Assembly: GCA_024449915.1 (NCBI GenBank) | Contig: JAMZAV010000299.1 | Span: 124,001-188,000 of the forward strand | From: Sweltsa coloradensis | Taxonomy: Eukaryota; Arthropoda; Insecta; Plecoptera; Chloroperlidae | Reading direction: 5' to 3' | Length of the DNA: 64,000 bases | Shown here: one piece after another, positions 2,931 through 49,105 of the stretch | Numbering within the stretch: the first letter of the stretch is position 1 | How the letters are laid out: each line of letters starts with the position of its first letter | Program-made: the position numbers and the translations under genes | Notes under the pieces: model-generated | The model's database searches: none | The model's input: the letters and a program-made list of their open reading frames with translations, nothing else | What the model was told of the DNA's origin: nothing

Positions 2931-3099
2931 CAGCTTCCGAGTAGCGCGCGCCCGGACGTGCGGACGCTGCCTGCACCACGTCTGGAGGTAGCCCGCAGGA
3001 GGCCAGAGAGGGTGGCCACGCGGCTGTGGGGAGGCGGCCGGGGGTAGGGGGAGCGGCCGGGGGGAGCTCGGAGTGCGCCCAGTAGTACATCAGGTCCGG
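2931..3099 (-). CDS. capu: Formin exon 4 (PDLMYYWAHSE segment)
   Basis: The acceptor is GTTGTTAG|CCGGAC and the donor GCTG|GTAAGA. The exon is 169 bp, entering in phase 0 and leaving in phase 1. It starts PDLMYYWAHSELPPAAPP, which continues ...EALFR of exon 3; the D-x-[LM]-Y-x-W-A core matches what I remember of Formin-2 (D-Q-L-Y-T-W-A). The rest is Pro/Ala/Arg-rich and GC-rich, unlike the AT-rich introns around it, and ends ...ARYSEA. A proline-rich linker here fits a position upstream of the FH1 region. Confidence 0.72.
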
Positions 3100-5173: not shown

Positions 5174-6214
5174 CTAGGAAGTTCGCAAACGCTTTTTCAG
5201 GCGCGTTGTTGGATGAGCGTACTTTTTTTAGACGAAAAAAACGTAAAATTGAGATTTTCATGAGAAATAATTTTTCGATTGCGCTCAAATTTCACATTAA
5301 TATATAAATTCATAAAATTAGGGTTCTGTGAAAAAATCATTACAATCGGTTAAAGCATGTAGGTGTTATAAGCTGAAGAAATTTTTTTTAACCGAAAAAA
5401 GTGAAAAATTGCGATTTTCATGAGAAATAAATTTTTAGATTACGCTCAAATTTCACACGAATATATAAATTTATAAAATTAAGGTTATGTAAAAAAATTA
5501 TCACAATCGAATATAGCATGTAGGTGTTATAAGTCGAAGACAATTTTTAAAAATCGAAAAAAATCGTAAAATTGCGATTTAAATGAGAAATAATTTTTAG
5601 ATTGCGCTCAAAAACGTGGCAGTTCTAAGTTCAGTGATTTCGAATACCTCCCGAAAATTTCATCGCAATTGGAGTATCGGTTTAGCCGAAATCGTGTTAA
5701 CAAACACACAAAAATACAAACAAACAGAAAAAACAAAAACAAACAAAAAAAAAACAAAAAATCAAAAAAAAAAAAAAAAAAAAAAAAAAAGAAATTCACA
5801 GAAAAAATCTTACGATTGCGCTCAAAAACGTAGCAGTTCTAAGTTCAGAGATTTTGAAGGCCTCCAGAAAATTTCATCGAAATTGGAGTATCGGTTTAGC
5901 TGGGATCGTGTTAACAAACTCACAAAAACACAAACAGTAAAAAACAAGAAAATCGAAAAAAATCGTAAAATTGCAATTTTCATGAGAAATAATTTTTCGA
6001 TCGATTTTTCGAACCGTGCAGTTAATTGATTTCGAAGGCCTCCATAAAATGTCATCGCAATCGGAGTATCGGTTTAGCCGGAATCGTGCTAACAAACAGA
6101 CAAAAATACAACAAATAAAAAGAAAAAAAGAAAATAAATAAAAAAAAACATTCCGGATTTTTTTCTCCAGTGTAGTGAAATGGAATCTTCGCTTCGCTCG
6201 CTACGCTCATCCAA
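5174..6214 (-). mobile_element. Helitron-like element, type A, extended copy
   Basis: On the plus strand it runs from CTAGGAAGTTCGCAAACGC and GTTGTTGGATGAGCGTA to CGCTTCGCTCGC and TACGCTCATCCAA. On the minus strand it therefore ends with the hairpin AACGC...GCGTT followed by CTAG, next to T. The body has about four copies of a 130-180 bp block (TGCGATTTTCATGAGAAATAA, in part, then GCGCTCAAATTTCACACG). Several poly-A runs follow the ATCGTGTTAACAAACACAC motif. No ORF of its own. Confidence 0.7.
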
Positions 6215-6316
6215 TAAGATGAAAATAAATTGATAATCTGTGAACGTTTTGTAAATGTGTGTGTTGTGTATGATGTGTGAAGTGCCATGCAGATGAGAGC
6301 CGGCCTGTATAGTTAC

Positions 6317-6394
6317 CCTGAACAACGCCTCCAGGGCTACATCCTTGTCTGGTATCTGTCGCACCACCCCAGCCGCCAGCAGATGCGTGCAGAA
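6317..6394 (-). pseudogene. Duplicated 3' part of formin exon 3 (26 codons)
   Basis: A 146-bp tandem duplication (offset between 6256 and 6402) carries the last 26 codons of exon 3, FCTHLLAAGVVRQIPDKDV then ALEALFR, with the same GTAACT donor and about 60 bp of following intron. It has neither the transposon nor the one-base loss, so it preserves the empty site. Just upstream on the gene strand is AAAGTTAG, so the copy could act as a phase 0-0 exon with a cryptic acceptor at 6395-6396. It may be a true duplication, or the second allele falsely joined during assembly. Confidence 0.65.
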
Positions 6395-6462
6395 CTAACT
6401 TTGTGTGTGTTGTGTATGATGTGTGAAGTGCCATGCAGATGAGAGCCGGCCTGTATAGTTAC

Positions 6463-6481
6463 CCTGAACAACGCCTCCAGG
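6463..6481 (-). CDS. capu: Formin exon 3, last bases beyond the transposon
   Basis: These 19 bases are the second TSD copy (6474-6481) and the final 11 bases of exon 3, before a donor TTCAGG|GTAACT. Without the transposon and with the lost base restored, exon 3 would be 176 bp, starting in phase 1 and ending in phase 0. It would encode ...DKDVALEALFR, which joins exactly to PDLMYYWAHSE of exon 4. The donor is weaker than those of exons 2 and 4. Confidence 0.55.
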
Positions 6482-7382
6482 TAGAGATGCGAACTTTTAA
6501 AAAATCGGCGGCCCGGCCCGGCCCGAGGCCCGACCCGAAACGGTCCGGCCCGGGCCCGGCCCGACTACTAAAAAAATACTGCGGCCCGGCCCGAACCCGG
6601 CCCGAAAGATGATCATACCGGCCCGGCCCGAAAGTCGGCCCGAAAACCTGGCCCGGCCCGAAAGTCGACGCGATCGCCCGGCCCGGCCCGGCCCGAAAGC
6701 TTGGATTTTTATACTCGCCAGAGCAAATGAGCCGCCTTTGCCAACAGTATGATAGTATTTCTTAGCTTTACGATTATATACCGTTATACCTAGTTCTGGG
6801 TGGGGCATTGGACAGTGTGTAGGCCAAAAGCAAATTGCCCATATGGCATGTTTATGAACTGTGCATATATATTTATCGATAGGAGTAATGCCGCCAATAA
6901 GGGGAGCAGATGTAGTTGTAGGTCTACATATTTATGTGAGAGCACACGTTCTATATTGTGCAAAGGGACTATAGGACAACTTCTCAATGATATGGCTCGT
7001 CCCCCAAGTCCGAAACTATCCGAGCCGGAGCCGAAGCATTGAGAAGTCGAGCCGGGCCGGGCCAAAACACCAATCTCTATAACCTAGGTTCAACATGGTG
7101 CGCGGCCCGAAAGCCCGAACTGGCCCGAAACGGCCCGGAAGCCCGAACTGGCCGAAAGCCCGAAAACGGCCCGAACTGGCTCGGAAGCCCGAACTGGGCC
7201 CCAAACGGGCCCGAACTGGCCCCGAAACGGCCCGGCCCGGCCCGAAATTTTAATGCTTCAGGCCCGGCCCGGCCCGAAGCCCGAAAATACAAAAACATCC
7301 GGCCCGGCCCGGCCCGAAAGTCGGGCCGGGCCGGGCCTGGCCGGGCTTTCGGGCCGGGCCGGGCCCAAAATTCCCATCTCTA
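6482..7382. mobile_element. 901-bp hAT-like element inside formin exon 3
   Basis: Ends TAGAGATG...CATCTCTA, flanked by an 8-bp TSD CCTCCAGG (6474-6481 and 7383-7390). The inverted ends continue for about 35 bp into GGCCCGGCCCG-type repeats that fill 6505-6700 and 7040-7365, so both thirds are extremely GC-rich, around a normal-composition centre (6700-7020). No transposase is seen, so it is non-autonomous. An 8-bp TSD is characteristic of the hAT superfamily. A copy of the target without the insertion lies alongside at 6329-6337. Confidence 0.85.
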
Positions 7383-7546
7383 CCTCCAGGCTACATCCTT
7401 GTCTGGTATCTGTCGCACCACCCCAGCCGCCAGCAGATGCGTGCAGAACTGCGCTGCTAGGATCTTGAGGTCTTGGGCGGTTAGAAGCAGGCGCAAGTAA
7501 TGTTCCTCAGGGAACGCAGACACAAACCAATTGATCAGCATTTGTC
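7383..7546 (-). CDS. capu: Formin exon 3, upstream part, cut by a transposon
   Basis: The acceptor TGTTTGCAG|GACAAATG lies at 7547. Phase 1 from exon 2 restores Gly, giving G-QMLINWFVSAFPEEHY, then L-R-L-L-L-T-A-Q-D-L-K-I-L-A-A-QFCTHLLAAGVVRQIPDKDV. As I remember Formin-2, its pre-FH1 segment follows the same pattern: G-[RQ]-x-L-[LI] near the start, an EE pair, FC, then an I/L-rich helix ending before a F-x-x-D-x-[LM]-Y-x-W motif. That motif begins exon 4, so this is the strongest evidence for the family. The exon is broken at its 3' end: compared with the nearby duplicate copy it lacks one base (GCCTGGAGG instead of GCCCTGGAGG) and then runs into a 901-bp hAT-like element. Read straight through, it meets TAG at the transposon edge. 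Confidence 0.72.
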
Positions 7547-7559
7547 CTGCAAACATATT

Positions 7560-8689
7560 GTTCGAGTCATGAAGCGTGAACTGTTGAAGCCACCACGCCT
7601 ATGCCTGAGCAAGAGGCCACCGCAGAACAAACTCTGCTCTGGCACATGGATTGGACGAGGTGTACGATTACAACCACTACACTGATACACTGCAAACTAC
7701 AGCCTCCGCCTCGCTTCAGATTCATTACTCTTTGCTAAAACCAAAAGCAGCAATAATAGTGGGACTATCGTATCGTTCTAGAAATAAACATCATGTGCAT
7801 TATTAGTTACTATAGATAAGATAGATCACATAGATGTGCGTACTCTACTTGATTCTTGAATAGAATCGTAGGGCCTACCCTTTTAAGTTTAACGATAAAA
7901 AAAATGCGAAACAACATTTAAAATAACCAATGAATAAATTGTGCTCTGCTTGTTTTTATAACTGTGTGGCTTTGGTATTATTTACTGGTAATGGTTCCAA
8001 TGGTAATGGTTGGTTATCAATGAAACTAAATAACACTGCTTATAAAATACATAAGAATGTTATTTTAACTGTCTTATTGTTATTAGATTAGCATATCGTT
8101 TAAACATTATTATTCGGTCTGTTTAGCCAAATCAAATTTGGGAAATATGTTCTCGAGTTTTCCCATACATATCCAGTGAAGAAGTGAGGACTGTGCATTA
8201 TTATTTGAATAGATTCAACATTGCACTAGCATATCGGGGCCCGGGCTTACTCGGAACTCAGTTTCAGTTATATTATCTGTGCTTGAACCCTGGGCCCGCC
8301 CTCACACTCACACTCAAGCAGCAATACAATAACGCAGATTGCAAAATTATGTTCAATACCTAATAGTAATGCATTAAGCATAAATTACACCATACTAGGA
8401 GCATTACCATTCGCAAGCACGTTAAATAAACTGTGTAATAAATTATTTCCACGGCATTCGAATGTCAAGAAAACTTGCTGTGGATATGGGTCTACTACTT
8501 GTTCAGTGAACATTGACTCCGTGGCGTCAGGCCCGTTGATCTTCCAAGCAACTTTTGAGTAATTTATCTGGACTACGTTTTCTCAGGGTTTACAGTCATT
8601 TTGTGCGTCTGTGAGACTGCGACTGTGAGAACATTAACAATGCGAAGTTGACTACCAACATTGTTTCAATGTTTTTATTGTTTTCGTTA
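7560..8689. other. Formin intron 2, near exon 3: no feature recognised
   Basis: 7.56-7.75 kb is intron next to the exon 3 acceptor, with a moderately GC-rich stretch. A short inverted GGGCCCGGGC...CTGGGCCCGC pair lies at about 8235-8300. Otherwise AT-rich unique-looking DNA. Confidence 0.4.
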
Positions 8690-11287: not shown

Positions 11288-12616
11288 CTAACTTAAGCGT
11301 AGCGCTCCGGACAACGGCGTCCGCTTGAGAGCAGCTCTTCGCCTCCAACGGGAGCTCCAGGCGAAGAGGGGGACGCCGCCGAGGAACTCCTGGGGTCGCG
11401 GATGACCGTAACAGAGCATTGGGTCGTACTGTCGGTGAACCACGTTGAGTAACAACCTACGTCGAACCTGGCACAGGGCTGGCTGTACTTGCGGAGCAGT
11501 CTTCGGGGCGACCACTCCCCCCGACTGAGGAGGAGTGAGGAAGACTCCCTCCTCGCCTCCGAAGCACCCGTGCATGAACGTCAGGAGGTTGCTAGCGTTG
11601 GTCTCAGCTCTAGTCCGCACTGAGGTAGCTTCGCACAACACGGGGACATACGGACTATCACAGGCGGTGACAAGTCTACGAGGGGTCGAAGGTGGAAACT
11701 CGAAGAAACTTAGTAAAGTTCCAAGAGGAAGTTCATTTTGAGTGCAAATCATAGGACGATTTGGACGGTGCACTAAATTGTAAAGAAGTTGATATTTTAC
11801 GTCCGAAAGATGAAATAGAACAGCGTGGGTTGGCCCAACAGAGATAGGTAAACTTGTTGTAACTGGGGGCGTTCTGCTGGTCTGTAAAGATTGACACAGT
11901 AGATGGTGGTCATAAAACGAGTAAACTTGTCGGTGATCCGGCTCATCGAGATTACAATGAGCACTCAGCCTGAAACGTCCGTTTTGAGTGAGGAAGTCGA
12001 TGAGTGCGTGGTTCACTGCCCTCACTGGGTGGTCGAAGTCACTTTCTACTAGATTCGACACTCGATTCATTTTTTGGTGGTGATCTAAATAATATTCCGA
12101 CAGTTTTGAGCCGTTACTCACATCTTGTGGCTGACCGAAATCACTATCTATTGCTTTCAAAACTTGATTTTCTTTTCGTTGATGGTCGAAGTCACTTCCT
12201 ATTTCTCTTGATGCACTACGAGCATTTCGTTGACGTTTGAATTTACTTCGCATTGCCTTTGACACAGGCACTTGTTGAGAACATTCAAAATCACTTTCCT
12301 TTGAATCTAGTATTTCACAAGCTTTCCGTAGCTGAAAACCACTTTCTGTAAGTTCCCATGCCCGCAGCACTTTCCGCGGATTGACAACATCACTGTCCGC
12401 AGATTCCGATATCTGGGTGGTCACTTTCCGCGGAGCGACAACATCACTGTCCGCAGATTCCGATATCTGGGTGGCCACTTTCCGCGGACCGACAACATCA
12501 CTGTCCGCAGATTCCGATATCTGGGTGGCCAGTTTCCTTGTCCGCCCTCGCCTCATCTGAGTCCGAGCCAGCCGCTCCGTGCGAGTACCCTCATAGCGCG
12601 AGCTCTCCACGAGCAT
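11288..12616 (-). CDS. Orphan ORF built of internal repeats, 442 residues
   Basis: A single open frame from ATG at 12616 to a stop at 11288, lying in formin intron 2 on the same strand; the frame is open a further 16 codons upstream. The N-terminal half is a series of degenerate repeats: three nearly exact 18-residue copies (ATQISESADSDVVGPRKV type; 54 bp at 12388, 12442 and 12496) followed by decayed units still marked by [DEG]-S-[DG]-F (ESDFECSQQV, GSDFDHQRKE, DSDFGQPQDV, ESDFDHPVRA). The C-terminal half contains a second duplication about 111 residues apart (LLYNLVHRPNRPMIC and LLLNVVHRQYDPMLC). I recognise no domain, signal peptide or membrane segment. It could be a lineage-specific gene, an exon, or a coding-like satellite. 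Confidence 0.35.
   Translation of the reverse strand: MLVESSRYEGTRTERLARTQMRRGRTRKLATQISESADSDVVGPRKVATQISESADSDVVAPRKVTTQISESADSDVVNPRKVLRAWELTESGFQLRKACEILDSKESDFECSQQVPVSKAMRSKFKRQRNARSASREIGSDFDHQRKENQVLKAIDSDFGQPQDVSNGSKLSEYYLDHHQKMNRVSNLVESDFDHPVRAVNHALIDFLTQNGRFRLSAHCNLDEPDHRQVYSFYDHHLLCQSLQTSRTPPVTTSLPISVGPTHAVLFHLSDVKYQLLYNLVHRPNRPMICTQNELPLGTLLSFFEFPPSTPRRLVTACDSPYVPVLCEATSVRTRAETNASNLLTFMHGCFGGEEGVFLTPPQSGGVVAPKTAPQVQPALCQVRRRLLLNVVHRQYDPMLCYGHPRPQEFLGGVPLFAWSSRWRRRAALKRTPLSGALRLS
12384..12540. repeat. 54-bp tandem repeat in the orphan ORF
   Basis: Three copies starting at 12388, 12442 and 12496 (CATCACTGTCCGCAGATTCC...), a multiple of three, so the minus-strand frame is preserved as an 18-residue repeat. 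Confidence 0.9.
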
Positions 12617-12789
12617 TACACACACGCTATACGGCGTATGTTTGCCAACTAACTGAAAACCCACACGAAAAGCAACTTTTCTTATCTGAGTGGGATAAAG
12701 GCGACCTTCTTACTATCAGGTACCCATATTTCTTGAAACAAGTTTTATCTCCTAGGCGAAAGCACAAGTCTTATTGTGCGCCAACTTAG

Positions 12790-15564: not shown

Positions 15565-16631
15565 GCATCCTTCCAACTAGCAACAAGTCAGCACATCCTA
15601 GGAACACAAAACCCTAGGTATACTGACGGCTGCTAGCATCCTTCCAACTAGCCACAAGTCAGCACATCCTAGGAACACAACGCCCTAGGTATACTGACTG
15701 CTGCTAGCATCCTTCCAACTAGCCACAAGTCAGCACATCCTAGGAACACAACGCCCTAGGTATACTGACTGCTGCTAGCATCCTTCCAACTAGCCACAAG
15801 TCAGCACATCCTAGGAACACAACGCCCTAGGTATACTGACTGCTGCTAGCATCCTTCCAACTAGCCACAAGTCAGCACATCCTAGGAACACAACGCCCTA
15901 GGTATACTGACTGCTGCTAGCATCCTTCCAACTAGCCACAAGTCAGCACATCCTAGGAACACAAAGCCCTAGGTATACTGACTGCTGCTAGCATCCTTCC
16001 AACTAGCCACAAGTCAGCACATCCTAGAAACACAACGCCCTAGGTATACTGACTGCTGCTAGCATCCTTCCAACTAGCCACAAGTCAGCACATCCTAGGA
16101 ACACAAAGCCCTAGGTATACTGACTGCTGCTAGCATCCTTCCAACTAGCCACAAGTCAGCACATCCTAGGAACACAAAGCCCTAGGTATACTGACTGCTG
16201 CTAGCATCCTTCCAACTAGCCACAAGTCAGCACACCCTAGGAACACAACGCCCTAGGTATACTGACTGCTGCTAGCATCCTTCCAACTAGCCACAAGTCA
16301 GCACATCCTAGGAACACAACGCCCTAGGTATACTGACTGCTGCTAGCATCCTTCCAACTAGCCACAAGTCAGCACATCCTAGGAACACAAAGCCCTAGGT
16401 ATACTGACTGCTGCTAGCATCCTTCCAACTAGCCACAAGTCAGCACATCCTAGAAACACAACGCCCTAGGTATACTGACTGCTGCTAGCATCCTTCCAAC
16501 TAGCCACAAGTCAGCACATCCTAGGAACACAAAGCCCTAGGTATACTGACTGCTGCTAGCATCCTTCCAACTAGCAACAAGTCAGCACATCCTAGAAACA
16601 CAACGCCCTATAGGTATACTGACTGCTGCTA
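15565..16631. repeat. 71-bp satellite array, 15 copies
   Basis: Unit GCATCCTTCCAACTAGCCAC... with a period of exactly 71 bp (starts 15565, 15636, 15707 and so on to 16559); the last copy has a 2-bp insertion. Units are over 95% identical and differ mainly at AAAGCCC/AACGCCC and TAGGAAC/TAGAAAC. It ends in TACTACTTTTCC, with unique sequence on both sides. No open frame runs through it. Confidence 0.95.
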
Positions 16632-17998: not shown

Positions 17999-18748
17999 CT
18001 AGGAAGCTTCGCAAACGCTTTTTCAGGCGCGTTGTTGGATGAGCGTAATTGGTGCATTGAGCTGCCATGTGTTATGCGGATTTTCTGTTGTTCTGTGAAA
18101 AAATCGTTACTAAGTCAAAAAAAAAATTATTTTATTAATTAAATTAAAAATTAACTTAATTTTTTTAATTAATCGTACTTTGAAAAAAGAAAAAACCTAA
18201 AATTGCAATTTTCAAAAGAAATAATTATTCGATTGCGCTCAAATTTAACACGAATATATTAATTCATAAAATTAAGGTTCTGTGAAAAAATCATTACAAT
18301 TGGATAAGCATGTAGGTGTTATAAGTCAAAGAACTGTTTTAAAAAAGAAAAAAACGTAAAATTTCGATATTCATGAGAAATAATTTTTCGATTGCGCACA
18401 AATTTCACACGAATATCTTCATTCATAAAATTAAGGTTCTGTGAAAAAATCATTAAAATCGGATAAAACATATAGGTGTTATAAGCCGAAGAAATTTTTT
18501 AAAAATCGAAAAAAATCGTAAAATTGCGATTTTTATGAGAAATAATTTTTCGATTGCGCTCAAAAACGTGGCAGTTCTAAATTCAGAGATTTCGAAGGCC
18601 TCCAGAAAATTTCATCGCAATTGGAGTATCGGTTTAGCCGGAATCGTGTTAACAGACACACAAAAATATAGGGGAAAAAAAACATTCAGGATATTTTTCT
18701 CCAGTGTAGTGAAATGGAATCTTCGCTACGCTCGCTACGCTCATCCAA
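17999..18748 (-). mobile_element. Helitron-like element, type A
   Basis: Starts CTAGGAAGCTTCGCAAACGC on the plus strand and ends CGCTACGCTCATCCAA. About three body blocks, each with the TTGCGATTTTTATGAGAAAT type motif. On the minus strand it ends CTAG|T. It adjoins the ATT-rich SINE cluster at 18.77 kb. Confidence 0.7.

Positions 18749-18775: not shown

Positions 18776-18870
<95 letters not shown>
18765..18870. repeat. (ATT)n array, left flank of the SINE cluster
   Basis: An almost pure ATT/TTA array; in the minus orientation it is the tail of the first SINE copy. Confidence 0.85.
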
Positions 18871-18873
<3 letters not shown>

Positions 18874-18874
18874 A

Positions 18875-19720
18875 TATGGTTTTTAAGCATAAGCCCGCTT
18901 TAAGGACATAGTTATTGATTGATAGCAGTTGTCGAAAAAGTTTGCCCCGACTGGGGTTCGAACCCAGAACCTCCGGCTTAACGTGCCATAGCTCTACCAA
19001 TTAAGCTACCGGGACCACAGAACAAACCTTTAGGAAACTGCTATTTGTTGTGACTGTTGACTTACATGACATAAATCCAACAGAAGACGGCAATGTAGCT
19101 GTCAAATCTGAAAGATTGCATGGATAAATTCAATCACATCTCATCTCCCATGAGTTGGGTAGTATGAATATATGGTTTTTAAGCATAAGCCCGCTTTAAG
19201 GACATAGTTATTGATTGATAGCAGTTGTCGAAAAAGTTTGCCCCGACTGGGGTTCGAACCCAGAACCTCCGGCTTAACGTGCCATAGCTCTACCAATTAA
19301 GCTACCGGGACCACAGAACAAACCTTTAGGAAACTGCTATTTGTTGTGACTGTTGACTTACATGACATAAATCCAACAGAAGACGGCAATGTAGCTGTCA
19401 AATCTGAAAGATTGCATGGATAAATTCAATCACATCTCATCTCCCATGAGTTGGGTAGTATGAATATATGGTTTTTAAGCATAAGCCCGCTTTAAGGACA
19501 TAGTTATTGATTCATAGCAGTTGTCGAAAAAGTTTGAAAAAGTTGTCTTCTGTTGGATTTATGTCATGTAAGTCAACAGTCACAACAAATAGCAGTTTCC
19601 TAAAGGTTTGTTCTGTGGTCCCGGTAGCTTAATTGGTAGAGCTATGGCACGTTAAGCCGGAGGTTCTGGGTTCGAACCCCAGTCGGGGCAAACTTTTTCG
19701 ACAACTGCTATCAATCAATA

Positions 19721-23061: not shown

Positions 23062-25370
23062 TACAAGAGCAACTGCCGCTGTGAATCACCAAGCCGAGAC
23101 TCGTCTAGCTGCTACTGCTACGTTCACTATATCGCTATGCACGAGGACGCAGACTAAAAACATATCACATCGCCAACGCCAAAGAGTTAAAGGTACAAGA
23201 TTCAAAAATGTTTTAGAAAGGTCCATTCATGCACCCAATTATTTCGGCTCGATATATACTGCGTCCATCTTTTATGCTCCTCAAATCAAATCCAGTTTAG
23301 TAATTCTCGATAAAACTTGATTTTTTGCAGTATTTTATTTTTTTGGAAGTTGGCAGGGCAAGATAAAATTTTGAAAAGTTTGTCAGTTCTGTTGTCAACA
23401 TTCATAGTGGTAACATTGGGGAGATTTTTTCAAAGTGAACTTTTAGTTTTTAAAAATAAAGTAGTAATTTAATTAAATAATTAATTTTAATTTTAATTAA
23501 TTTTTAATTTTTTGTAGGTTGTATTCCTGCAGATTTTGCTGTCCATGTTAAAAGTTTGTCAAAAATTGGACCTTGACGTTGGTGTGAAATTTTGTCAAAA
23601 TCGGACCAGTAGTTTGGCTCCTATACACGTCGAACCGAGGCCGTCGCTATACTCACTTCGTTCGGTCGAACACACAGACAGACGTAATCACAGCGAAGTG
23701 CCGCTAATAAACTTGCCATAGAGACTCTTTTCGAATGCGTTGTTTAAGTTTCGTTTTGCCATTGTTATCATTTAGCAATGAATTCATATTTTGAAAGTGG
23801 TACAATCCTTATGATTATAATAGTCTAGTGTGTTCGCAACAAAAAAGGCAAATATGTGGCTATTTGTGATACAAGCAAGCCGTTTTGCACAAGTGTTACA
23901 CTTACAAATTGAAACATTTTGACCCGCAGCTCATGATGATTTGAGCATGTGGGGGGCGCGTGGGGGGTATTTTAAAAAAAGGGGGGGGGGGAATTATTTT
24001 AAACAATTTGGAAGTCGATATGTACAATAAGGGTGTCATTTTCACATATTTTGAGGTCGACAAATTTAATGCTGATAATTTAAACTTTGTAAGAGCAACC
24101 ATTTAGGCTGCAAGGGCGCCATATTGGAAAACGGCCCCCACATACACAATAGTTACTAAAGCACGTTACTTGGCCTTCATTGGTATCAATTCTGACTATA
24201 TCGTACTCGCTGAACACGCCTGTGACTCTAGATTTGCGATAGGGCAATCAACATTCCAGAAATGCCGCCATTTTGAATATTACAGGTGTCCGAGATGTGG
24301 TCAAAGGGTTAAAGGGTCTAGGCTATTTGTGACACAAGCAAGCCGTTTTGCACAAGTGTTACACTTAAAAATTGCATTTTGACCCGCAGCTCATAATAAT
24401 TTGAGAATGTGGGGGGCGCGTGGGGGTATTTTTTAAAAAAAGGGGGGGGGAATTATTTTAAACAATTTGGAAGTCGATATGTACAATGAGGGTGTCATTT
24501 TCACATATTTTGAGGTCGACAAATTTAATGCAGATAATTTAAACTTTGTAAAAGCAACCATTTAGGCTCCAAGGGCGCCATATTGGAAAACGGCCCCCAC
24601 ATACACAATAGTTCTAAAGCACGTTACTTGGCCTTCATTGGTATCTATTCTGACTAAATCGTACTCGCTGAACACGCCTGTGACTCTAGATTCGCGATAG
24701 GGCAATCAACATTCCAGAAATGCCGCCATTTTGAATATTACAGGTGTCCGAGATGTGGTCAAAGGGTTAAAGGGTCTAGGCTATTTGTGACACAAGCAAG
24801 CCGTTTTGCACAAGTGTTACACTTAAAAATTGAAACATTTTGACCCGCAGCTCATAATAATTTGAGAATGTGGGGGGCGCGTGGGGGTATTTTTAAAAAA
24901 AGGGGGGGGGAATTATTTTAAACAATTTGGAAGTCGATATGTACAATGAGGGTGTCATTTTCACATATTTTGAGGTCGACAAATTTAATGCAGATAATTT
25001 AAACTTTGTAAAAGCAACCATTTAGGCTCCAAGGGCGCCATATTGGAAAACGGCCCCCACATACACAATAGTTTCTAAAGCACGTTACTTGGCCTTCATT
25101 GGTATACATTCTGACTAAATCGTACTCACTGAACACTCCTGTGACTCTAGATTCGCGATAGGGCAACCAACATTCCAGGAATGCCGCCATTTTGAATATT
25201 ACAGGTGTCCGAGATGTGGTCAAAGGGTCTAAGGGGTAATAAAATCATCAATGTTCATCAATGTTGGTTGTAAGAGACACTTACTCCGATCTTATGTAGC
25301 TCTTCTATTTGGCGCTTGTCTCTATTTCGACCAAAGCAGGAAAGTCCCAAGTATAATGGCAAGGGAGCCG

Positions 25371-34090: not shown

Positions 34091-34662
34091 TATCGACGGA
34101 TTAGTCAAACAAAAATACATTATCTTTCTTTGTTTCGACTCCTTAGATTACAACACAAAACAGAAACTTAGTCTTAGCCAGTGCTTAATTTGTAACGAAG
34201 CGCAGTTATACGCAGTATACCCACCTGTTTTAAAACAAAACAAAATGTGTAGCAAATATTAAATCCTTAGAAAGAAACGCACTAACGGTATTAAAAGTTA
34301 ACACGTTTCCTATAAATTATTGCAATTGGTAATTTAGTGCCTTCCTGGCTCAGAACTCACTAGGCCTATACAAGCTATCTTGAAGGGGAAAAGGCCCAAA
34401 ACATTTTTCGCCTCCGGCGGCTGGGGCTTTGCCCCCGACCCCTATCGTCGATATTAGCCTATTTATATAATGAACTCTACTAACTTAAAAACTAATATTA
34501 TCCTAATTTAAACCATCCACCCAAAGAAATCATTCCAATTCGATGACTGCGTACACCCACCTTTTCTGTACAAATTAACCACTGGTCTTAGTCTTAGCTC
34601 ATCAGCACACAACCATATTACATAGATTTATTAATTTAATATCAAGTTTGCACCGCACTTAC

Positions 34663-34872
34663 CTTCAAATTTCTCGTATATTTGGAAATCCAGCTTTTCA
34701 GGAACGAACCGTGGTTTCGCAATTCGTTGCTCCAATGTTGCCTTGTCGAGCGTGAGAGAGGCCACTTTGCGTAGGACGTTACTGTCTAGGGGTACATCCG
34801 TGACTGAGGAGTGTCTTCGTAGGTCTCTGGAGGCGTCGGCAGGAACCTGTGCTGCACACACGCCGGGAACTC
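34663..34872 (-). CDS. capu: Formin (Formin-2/Cappuccino-like), exon 2
   Basis: A 210-bp exon (70 codons, phase 1 at both ends). The acceptor is TCTTCTCACAG|GAGTTC and the donor GAAG|GTAAGT, a near-consensus site. The join to exon 1 gives ...LAPIT-G-VPGVCAAQV..., and it ends ...KLDFQIYEKFEG, continuing in exon 3 as QMLINWF. Residues about 20-70 of the exon (R-R-H-S-S-V then a Leu/Lys-rich stretch and KPRFVPEKLDFQIYEKFEG) look conserved, unlike the disordered exon 1. In Formin-2 the equivalent stretch leads into a small helical region upstream of FH1 whose function is poorly defined. It is separated from exon 1 by 4.2 kb and from exon 3 by about 27 kb of transposon-filled intron. Confidence 0.72.
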
Positions 34873-35348: not shown

Positions 35349-35973
35349 CTTGGAAGCTTCGCAAACGCTTTTTCAGGCGCGTTGTTGGATGAGCGTAACT
35401 GTTTAAAAACAAAAAAAGGGTAAAATTGCGATTTTCATAAGAAATAATTATTCGATTACGCTAAAATTTCACGTGAATATATTAAATCATAAAATTAAGG
35501 TTCTGTGAAAAAATTATTACAGTCGGATAAAGCATTTAGATGTTATAAATCGAAGAAATTTTTTAAAAAAACAAAAAAAAAACGTAAAATTGCCATTATC
35601 ATGAGAAATAATTTTTTGATTGTGCTCTAATTTCACACGAATACATTAATTTATAAAATTAAGGTTCTGTAAAAAAATCATTACAATCGGATAAAGCATG
35701 TAGGTGTTATAAGTCGAAGAAATTTTTTAAAAATCGAAAAAAATCGTAAAATTGCGATTTTCATAAGAAATAATTTTTCGATTGCGCTCAAAAACGTGGC
35801 AGTTCTAAGTTCAGAGATTTCGAAGGTCTCCAGAAAATTTCATCGCAATTGGAGTATCGGTTTAGCCGGAATCGTGCTAACAGACAGACAAAAATACAAA
35901 AAGAAAGAAAAAAAAACATTCCGGATTTTTTTCTCCAGTGTAGTGAAGTGGAATCTTCGCTGCTCTCATTCAA
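35349..35973 (-). mobile_element. Helitron-like element, type A, in formin intron 1
   Basis: Starts CTTGGAAGCTTCGCAAACGC (CTTG in place of CTAG) and ends with an eroded GCTCTCATTCAACA. Contains the same body blocks and the ATCGCAATTGGAGTATCGG motif followed by GACAGACAAAAATAC. Close in sequence to the copies at 17.2 and 18.0 kb. Confidence 0.66.
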
Positions 35974-40029: not shown

Positions 40030-40425
40030 GATCGTATCTTCGTTGTGAACACGCTGAAAAGAAAACTTCAACAAATTTGTGATGGGCTCGAAGAAAGATT
40101 TGAAGTAAACAACACTCGTACCCTGGGGCTCCTCGCCCCTTGACATTGGTTGCAGGTTGCCTGGGGCGTCGTCATCGTTGTCGTCGTCACATCCAGTCGT
40201 CGCCTGATCGCCAGCAACCCCATGACGACCACTATGATCGTCGCACTCGTCTTGTTGAACCACTAACAACTCTAGCTTGTAATTTACTTCCCTTGTTATT
40301 GCGCCCTGGCTGGAAACACAACACTGACAGACGCCATCTTGGCAGACACGCGACGGAGACGCAGGGGCGTCGGTAGCGCCGTCTGAGCATGCGTCGATGT
40401 CGCCGACGTCAACCGGCGGTGCCAT
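40030..40425 (-). CDS. Possible N-terminal extension or 5' UTR of the formin gene
   Basis: The formin frame stays open upstream of the MGN start for 132 codons, to an ATG at 40425 (MAPPVDVGDIDACSDG...). The stretch is Asp/Gly/Cys-rich, with a run of acidic residues (DDDNDDD), and shows no domain I recognise. It could be an alternative first-exon isoform, since Cappuccino genes make several, or 5' UTR that happens to be open. A longer N-terminus would remove the glycine-2 of the MGN start. The sequence alone does not decide between these options. Confidence 0.35.
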
Positions 40426-48351: not shown

Positions 48352-49105
48352 TTGGATGAGCGTAGCGAGCGAAGCGAAGATTCCATTTCACTACACTGGA
48401 GAAAAAAATCCTGAATGTTTTTTTTTCTTTCTTTCTGTATTTTTGTCTGTTTGTTAGCACGATTCGGGCAAAACCGATACTCCGATTGCGATGAAATTTC
48501 ATGAAGGCCTTCGAAATCTCTGAACTAAGAACTGCCACGTTTTTGAGCGCAATCAGGAAATTTTTTCTCATGAAAATCGCAATTCTACGATTTTTCGATT
48601 TTTAAAAACTTTCTTCGACTTATTATACATACATGCTTTATCCGATTGTAATGATTTTTTTCACAGAACCTTAATTTCATGAATTAAGATATTCGTGCGA
48701 AATTTGAGCGTAATCGAAAAATTATTGCTCATGAAAATCGAAATTTTACGTTTTTTTTTTTTTTAAAACAATTCTTTGACTATTACATCTACATGCTTTA
48801 TCCTATTGTAATTATTTTTTCACAGAACCTTGATTTCATGAATTAAAATATTCGTGTTAAATTTGAGCGCAATCGAATATTTATTTCTTATGAAAATTGC
48901 AATTTTACAATTTTTTTCTTGTTAAAAATTACGATTAATTAAAAAAATTGAGTTATTTTTTATTTAATTTAATTTAATTAAAAAAAAATCTTCGACCAAG
49001 GAAAGATTTTTTCACAGAACAACAGAAAATCCGCGTAACACATGGCAGCTCAATGTACCAATTACGCTCATCCAACAACGCGGCGGGACTTAAGCGATTT
49101 CCTAG
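48352..49105 (+). mobile_element. Helitron-like element, type A, plus orientation
   Basis: 5' end TTGGATGAGCGTAGCGAGC, 3' end GCTCATCCAACAACGCGG then CGGGACTTAAGCGATTTCCTAG, next to T. It shows the full plan: 5' subterminal repeat, short CTGT tract near 48436, body blocks, inverted subterminal repeat, hairpin and CTAG. Its 3' hairpin is of the type B sequence, so it is a hybrid of types A and B. Confidence 0.75.

Follow-up and report, generated by a model that had tools for sequence, protein, structure and literature searches.

A probably young hAT insertion in a coding exon of cappuccino in Sweltsa coloradensis, with GT and AG edges that are probably coincidental

Exonic copies of the maize element Ds1 are able to supply donor and acceptor splice sites (PMC5432752), and the reference list of PMC3260210 includes a paper whose title describes Ds1 as an intron. 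Like the insertion described here, the Ds1/Ac-Ds elements (Adh1-Fm335), reported to act as introns, are non-autonomous hAT elements with an 8-bp TSD and with TAG at the very end. The ends read TAGAGATG in our element and C/TAGGGATGAAA in Ac-Ds, according to PMC3260210. Both have splice sites close to their ends, as candidate sites in our case; the donor considered here would consist of the last TSD base and the first base of the element, whereas the Ds1 donors in the relevant passages of PMC5432752 lie 12, 22 or 33 bp from the terminus. The hosts also differ, an insect here and a plant for Ds1. Introners, as portrayed in parts of PMC9860276, resemble the present element in being TIR/TSD elements in exons whose splice sites, candidate ones in our case, adjoin or fall within the TSD, and some of them take both splice sites from the insertion site. 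Introner families make many introns, with 5 to more than 2,000 copies and median lengths of 30-654 nt (passages of PMC9860276), unlike our 901-bp element, for which such edges occur in one of 24 intact insertions and the splice sites are candidates. As far as the main text of PMC9860276 goes, no word begins with hAT, and insect occurs once, in the reference list. The same source, in a part on proposed mechanisms of intron gain, includes internal gene duplication. Our locus is like intron gain by internal tandem duplication in having a short tandem duplicate of an exon end plus donor; unlike that route, the duplicate here is located in intron sequence past the native donor of the exon, and any splice within it is hypothetical.

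The window analysed here is a stretch of 64,000 nt (C299:124001-188000) in a 1.45-Gb assembly of 16,871 contigs. Within it, a hAT element disrupts a conserved minus-strand exon of this insect's ortholog of cappuccino/formin-2 (Table 1). A preliminary description had read the interrupted frame as a formin coding exon, and a protein search with 55 residues of the exon confirmed this identity: 37 of 42 candidates fell under E 0.001, all 37 were from arthropods, 36 carried the FH2 Pfam domain (the remaining one had no precomputed domain), and the closest, from the cockroach Periplaneta, was 92% identical. The short exon alone gave no useful match against Pfam or PDB; the protein search settled the matter. 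The interval 6463-7546, which had been given for the transposon, is the span of the split exon; the element itself occupies 6482-7382.

Using Periplaneta formin-2 as a tblastn query, we found collinear minus-strand matches, including the FH2 exons, that extend from window position 40104 past the start of the window by about 11.9 kb. Apart from the split exon, no frame breaks were found inside the tblastn-covered exons (query residues ~880-1150 lie outside this coverage), and two matches extended past exon ends into a stop. The gene is thus frame-intact elsewhere where tblastn covers it, as in a working gene, which counts against a damaging insertion. A protein from the species itself, which would give the annotated splice, was absent among the 120 of 1135 matches listed, the best of which was 83% over an FH2 exon. 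A single cappuccino gene, whose Drosophila ortholog is needed for oogenesis, was detected. One of its intron spans also holds a 473-aa stop-to-stop ORF on the minus strand (11288-12709) with internal repeats (54 bp x 3.1 on the DNA), for which no Pfam match was found. Elsewhere in the window, near-identical tandem arrays include 296 bp x 2.3 (18867-19536, 99%) and 61 bp x 2.7 (99%), together with 460 bp x 3.0 (23858-25237, 96%) and 15 copies of a 71-bp unit (15565-16631, 97% matches). A dispersed repeat that contains a tandem unit of ~160 bp and ends in an A-rich tail occurs in both orientations at 5223-5612, 18179-18564, 35405-35792 and 48542-48928.

Table 1. Features of the split cappuccino exon and its surroundings (window positions; ^ marks an exon or element junction on the gene strand)
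Feature	Position	Strand	Remarks
Next cappuccino exon (PDLMYYW...)	2932..3099	-	acceptor TTAG^CCGGAC, phase 0
Copy A, 141-bp partial tandem duplicate	6256..6396	-	element-free, in frame; last 80 nt of exon + first 61 nt of intron
Filler AACTT, 5 nt	6397..6401		at tandem-duplication junction
Copy B, 140 nt	6402-6481 plus 7391-7450	-	interrupted by element; one G fewer than copy A
Split exon, whole	6463-7546	-	contains element, not equal to it
Exon remainder past exact acceptor, 12 nt	6463..6474	-	ends at native donor TTCAGG^GTAACT (6462)
TSD, left copy, 8 bp	6474..6481		CCTCCAGG; gene strand CCTGGAGG
Candidate exact acceptor CCTGGAG^GCG	6475..6476	-	in far TSD copy; exact removal, frame shifted by -1
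Non-autonomous hAT element, 901 bp	6482..7382		termini TAGAGATG and CATCTCTA; GC-rich GGCCCGG subterminal repeats
Alternative candidate acceptor TTTTTTAAAAG^TTCG	6494..6495	-	inside element end; weak score; keeps the frame of the assembled bases (+6 residues)
Candidate donor GAG^GTAGAG	7382..7383	-	last TSD base + first base of element
TSD, right copy, 8 bp	7383..7390		CCTCCAGG; exact match to left copy
5' part of split exon	7383..7546	-	acceptor TTTGCAG^GA at 7546; ends with right TSD copy
Site of missing G of GGG run	7390..7391		compared with copy A, whose additional base is at 6336
Preceding cappuccino exon region	34634..34872	-	tblastn match 34855-34634; acceptor 34872; likely donor 34662

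The inserted sequence had been called hAT-like, and its relatives in the assembly uphold that assignment. A genome search with the element gave at least 103 matches (from 40 scored of 486 candidates), and 39 other copies were retrieved. Exact 8-bp TSDs flank 24 of the 40 copies with called ends, the window copy included; position 2 is T in 15 of these 24 TSDs, and position 7 is A or G in 20. Left ends of the family occur at 45 places genome-wide at up to two mismatches, a search that misses decayed ends, against none for a reversed-pattern control. An 8,955-bp relative (C126:85169-94123) has identical ends, and its flanking TSD copies agree at 7 of 8 bases. It carries the hAT dimerisation domain PF05699 in a 245-aa open frame (68.8 bits; cut-off 21.4) and, in a 365-aa open frame, a DUF659 similarity of 23.2 bits, under the cut-off of 34.7. 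With 8-bp TSDs, short Ac-like TIRs and a relative that holds a hAT transposase between the same ends, the element is firmly placed by its sequence as an Ac-like member of the hAT superfamily; the window copy is non-autonomous, since 901 bp leaves no room for a hAT transposase gene. A hAT transposase about 0.7 kb from another copy, L009, had been considered as the autonomous partner and was set aside because it lies outside the L009 element; the C126 relative was found instead. The dimerisation domain is very abundant in this genome, with at least 150 matches over the curated cut-off (150 scored of 2240 candidates). Copies L021, L023 and L026 have altered first bases, and by eye a stretch resembling the dispersed repeat of the window adjoins the right end of the C126 copy.

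Several comparisons suggest that the insertion is young. The TSD copies flanking it are identical, and the element differs from a consensus of six subfamily siblings by 7 substitutions over 834 compared positions; the siblings themselves differ by 0, 3, 4, 6, 7 and 12, a comparison that favours them because they built the consensus and the window copy did not, and two further copies differ by 27 and 33. Against youth, the window copy shows 18 indel events relative to this consensus (6-17 in the six siblings; 26 and 25 in the two further copies), and its nearest copy is 97.1% identical, whereas L009 and L010 are 99.6% identical in a wider alignment. An older insertion had been suggested by best matches of 88-90% and by the 97.1% of a first alignment, and was rejected when realignment within the subfamily reduced the divergence mostly to repeat-length differences plus the 7 substitutions. 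The comparison was repeated on a non-repetitive core of 404 bp, where no sibling contributed to the consensus against which it was scored. Here the window copy has 6 substitutions and 3 insertions, two of them of one base; the siblings have 0, 0, 1, 1, 2 and 6 substitutions and 0, 0, 0, 0, 0 and 1 one-base indels, and in the two further copies the one-base indels number 5 and 8. The 5 and 8 core indels of L021 and L023 suggest uneven consensus quality or decay. We infer that the insertion is young, though not the youngest of its group, with a divergence compatible with an allele that still segregates; local consensus errors within the window copy are possible.

The exon end is present twice in tandem, and the element interrupts one of these copies. 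The preliminary description had spoken of a neighbouring copy with one more base; that copy (copy A) does have the extra base and no element, and it proved to be a partial tandem duplicate of 80 nt of exon and 61 nt of intron instead of a full exon. It reaches into the next intron, beyond the exon's own donor, and its frame is backed by the proteins of relatives. The sole difference between copies A and B is one G of a GGG run, absent from B. The missing base is real in the sequence as assembled, and a one-base consensus error there is possible, since the site is in a GGG run and the element core carries two one-base insertions against 0-1 in the siblings.

Two copies that are identical save for one base, one filled and one empty, look like two alleles, and the tandem pair could be two haplotypes of a single exon that the assembly has concatenated. 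A search of the assembly with the flank (7383-8300) yielded two candidates, both scored, which were the site itself and copy A, both on C299; no second haplotype copy was therefore found, and the lack of a separate haplotig fits such an artefact. However, the duplicated length of only ~141 bp is far below that expected if the assembly was built from long reads, a 5-nt filler separates the copies, other near-identical tandem arrays occur in the window, and no N was present in the 235,461 bases examined (overlaps counted twice). We consider an assembly artefact unlikely.

On the gene strand, the near side of the element reads CCTGGAG^GTAGAGATGG and the far side CATCTCTACCTGGAG^GCG, the latter also CTACCTGGAG^GCG with G at -3. 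As had been proposed, the GT and AG positions would remove the element and one TSD copy exactly (909 nt). The candidate donor scores 0.7 bits (93rd percentile of 5,561 GT sites in a 94-kb stretch; 2.0 for the exon's native donor) and the acceptor for exact removal reaches 0.5 bits, at the 89th percentile of 4,793 AG sites. Since they outscore 2 of 11 assigned native donors and 2 of 10 assigned native acceptors, respectively, neither is out of the native range; the scores serve only to rank, because they use assumed donor and acceptor frequencies and the native sites were assigned by their proximity to tblastn ends. The frameshift predicted for this splice holds: the exact pair leaves a remainder of 2 and, with one base missing beside the TSD, the frame ends one base short, which a one-base assembly error could reverse. 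If left unspliced, the reading frame ends in the very first codon of the element, a TAG stop.

If the missing base were such a consensus error, the exact splice could make the element a working new intron. The site scores, the intact frame elsewhere in the covered exons and the hint of local error from the two one-base insertions are all compatible with this. Nevertheless, the product is frame-shifted as assembled, position -3 of the acceptor is the G, just 12 nt of exon would be left downstream, and errors outside the element look rare, since the tested coding stretch has no frameshift elsewhere. A working new intron of this kind therefore seems rather unlikely.

The insertion might also be tolerated through other splices that fit the assembled bases. 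Open, in-frame pairs join 7383 to the element's AAAAG at 6493 (+6 residues), 7418 to 6474 (-12) and 7418 to 6355 in copy A (-3), and in the first of these the one-base loss would compensate for the frame. At 1.9, donor 7418 scores almost as high as the native donor (2.0), and the C variant that creates AAAAG is present in seven exact genomic left ends. Such pairs also arise by chance, however, in 18 of the 346 pairs tested up to the native donor and 21 of the 427 tested up to that of copy A, and the AAAAG (-2.5) and copy A (-3.0) acceptors fall below all 10 assigned native acceptors (lowest -1.3). We regard tolerance by these routes as very unlikely. Most improbable is the specific proposal of a hAT-made new cappuccino intron that would use the AAAAG 3' splice site of the element (where a C found in the subfamily changes AAAAA to AAAAG on the gene strand) and a donor formed by the last G of the TSD and the T of the TIR, with the frame restored by a one-base exon deletion beside the TSD and six extra residues.

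An introner is defined by the claim that its family makes introns. The boundaries had been described as introner-like, and GT and AG are indeed present. These edges trace to a TSD ending in AGG meeting a hAT terminus that starts with TAG, and a TSD ending in AGG or containing AGGT on either strand was found in one of the 24 exact TSDs, the window's own. In the flanks, 652 of 60,910 8-mers end in AGG, both strands counted (1.07% per strand). The meeting of this TSD with this terminus is probably a coincidence, and candidate splice sites at the element/TSD boundaries are predicted for this copy only. Among 20 site-spanning ORFs, chosen by length, from 16 of the 23 other exact-TSD copies, none marked a coding exon above a Pfam cut-off, the best two scoring 17.9 bits against cut-offs of 25 and 27; as short exons and proteins outside Pfam escape such a scan, it counts as a weak negative. 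Within these limits, the family showed no general introner signature, and the exact splice shifts the frame as assembled; the introner-like reading is supported for the boundary letters of this copy.

Together, these results favor a young hAT insertion in a cappuccino exon that is probably damaging and perhaps segregating, its splice sites being there by coincidence. A non-autonomous Ac-like hAT element would have inserted recently into the coding exon, within one of the two tandem copies of the exon end, and the AGG-ending TSD beside the TAG-starting terminus would have produced the GT and AG edges. The assembled allele is most likely null or of low function, given that the exact splice would shift the frame and an unspliced transcript would run into the TAG stop; since the insertion appears young, the allele may still segregate. 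If the element is spliced, the locus would capture, at an early stage, the hAT-made birth of an intron in an animal gene, and the element-free copy of this exon end, about 1 kb away, would serve as a built-in comparison. If it is not spliced, the locus would represent a natural insertion allele of cappuccino.
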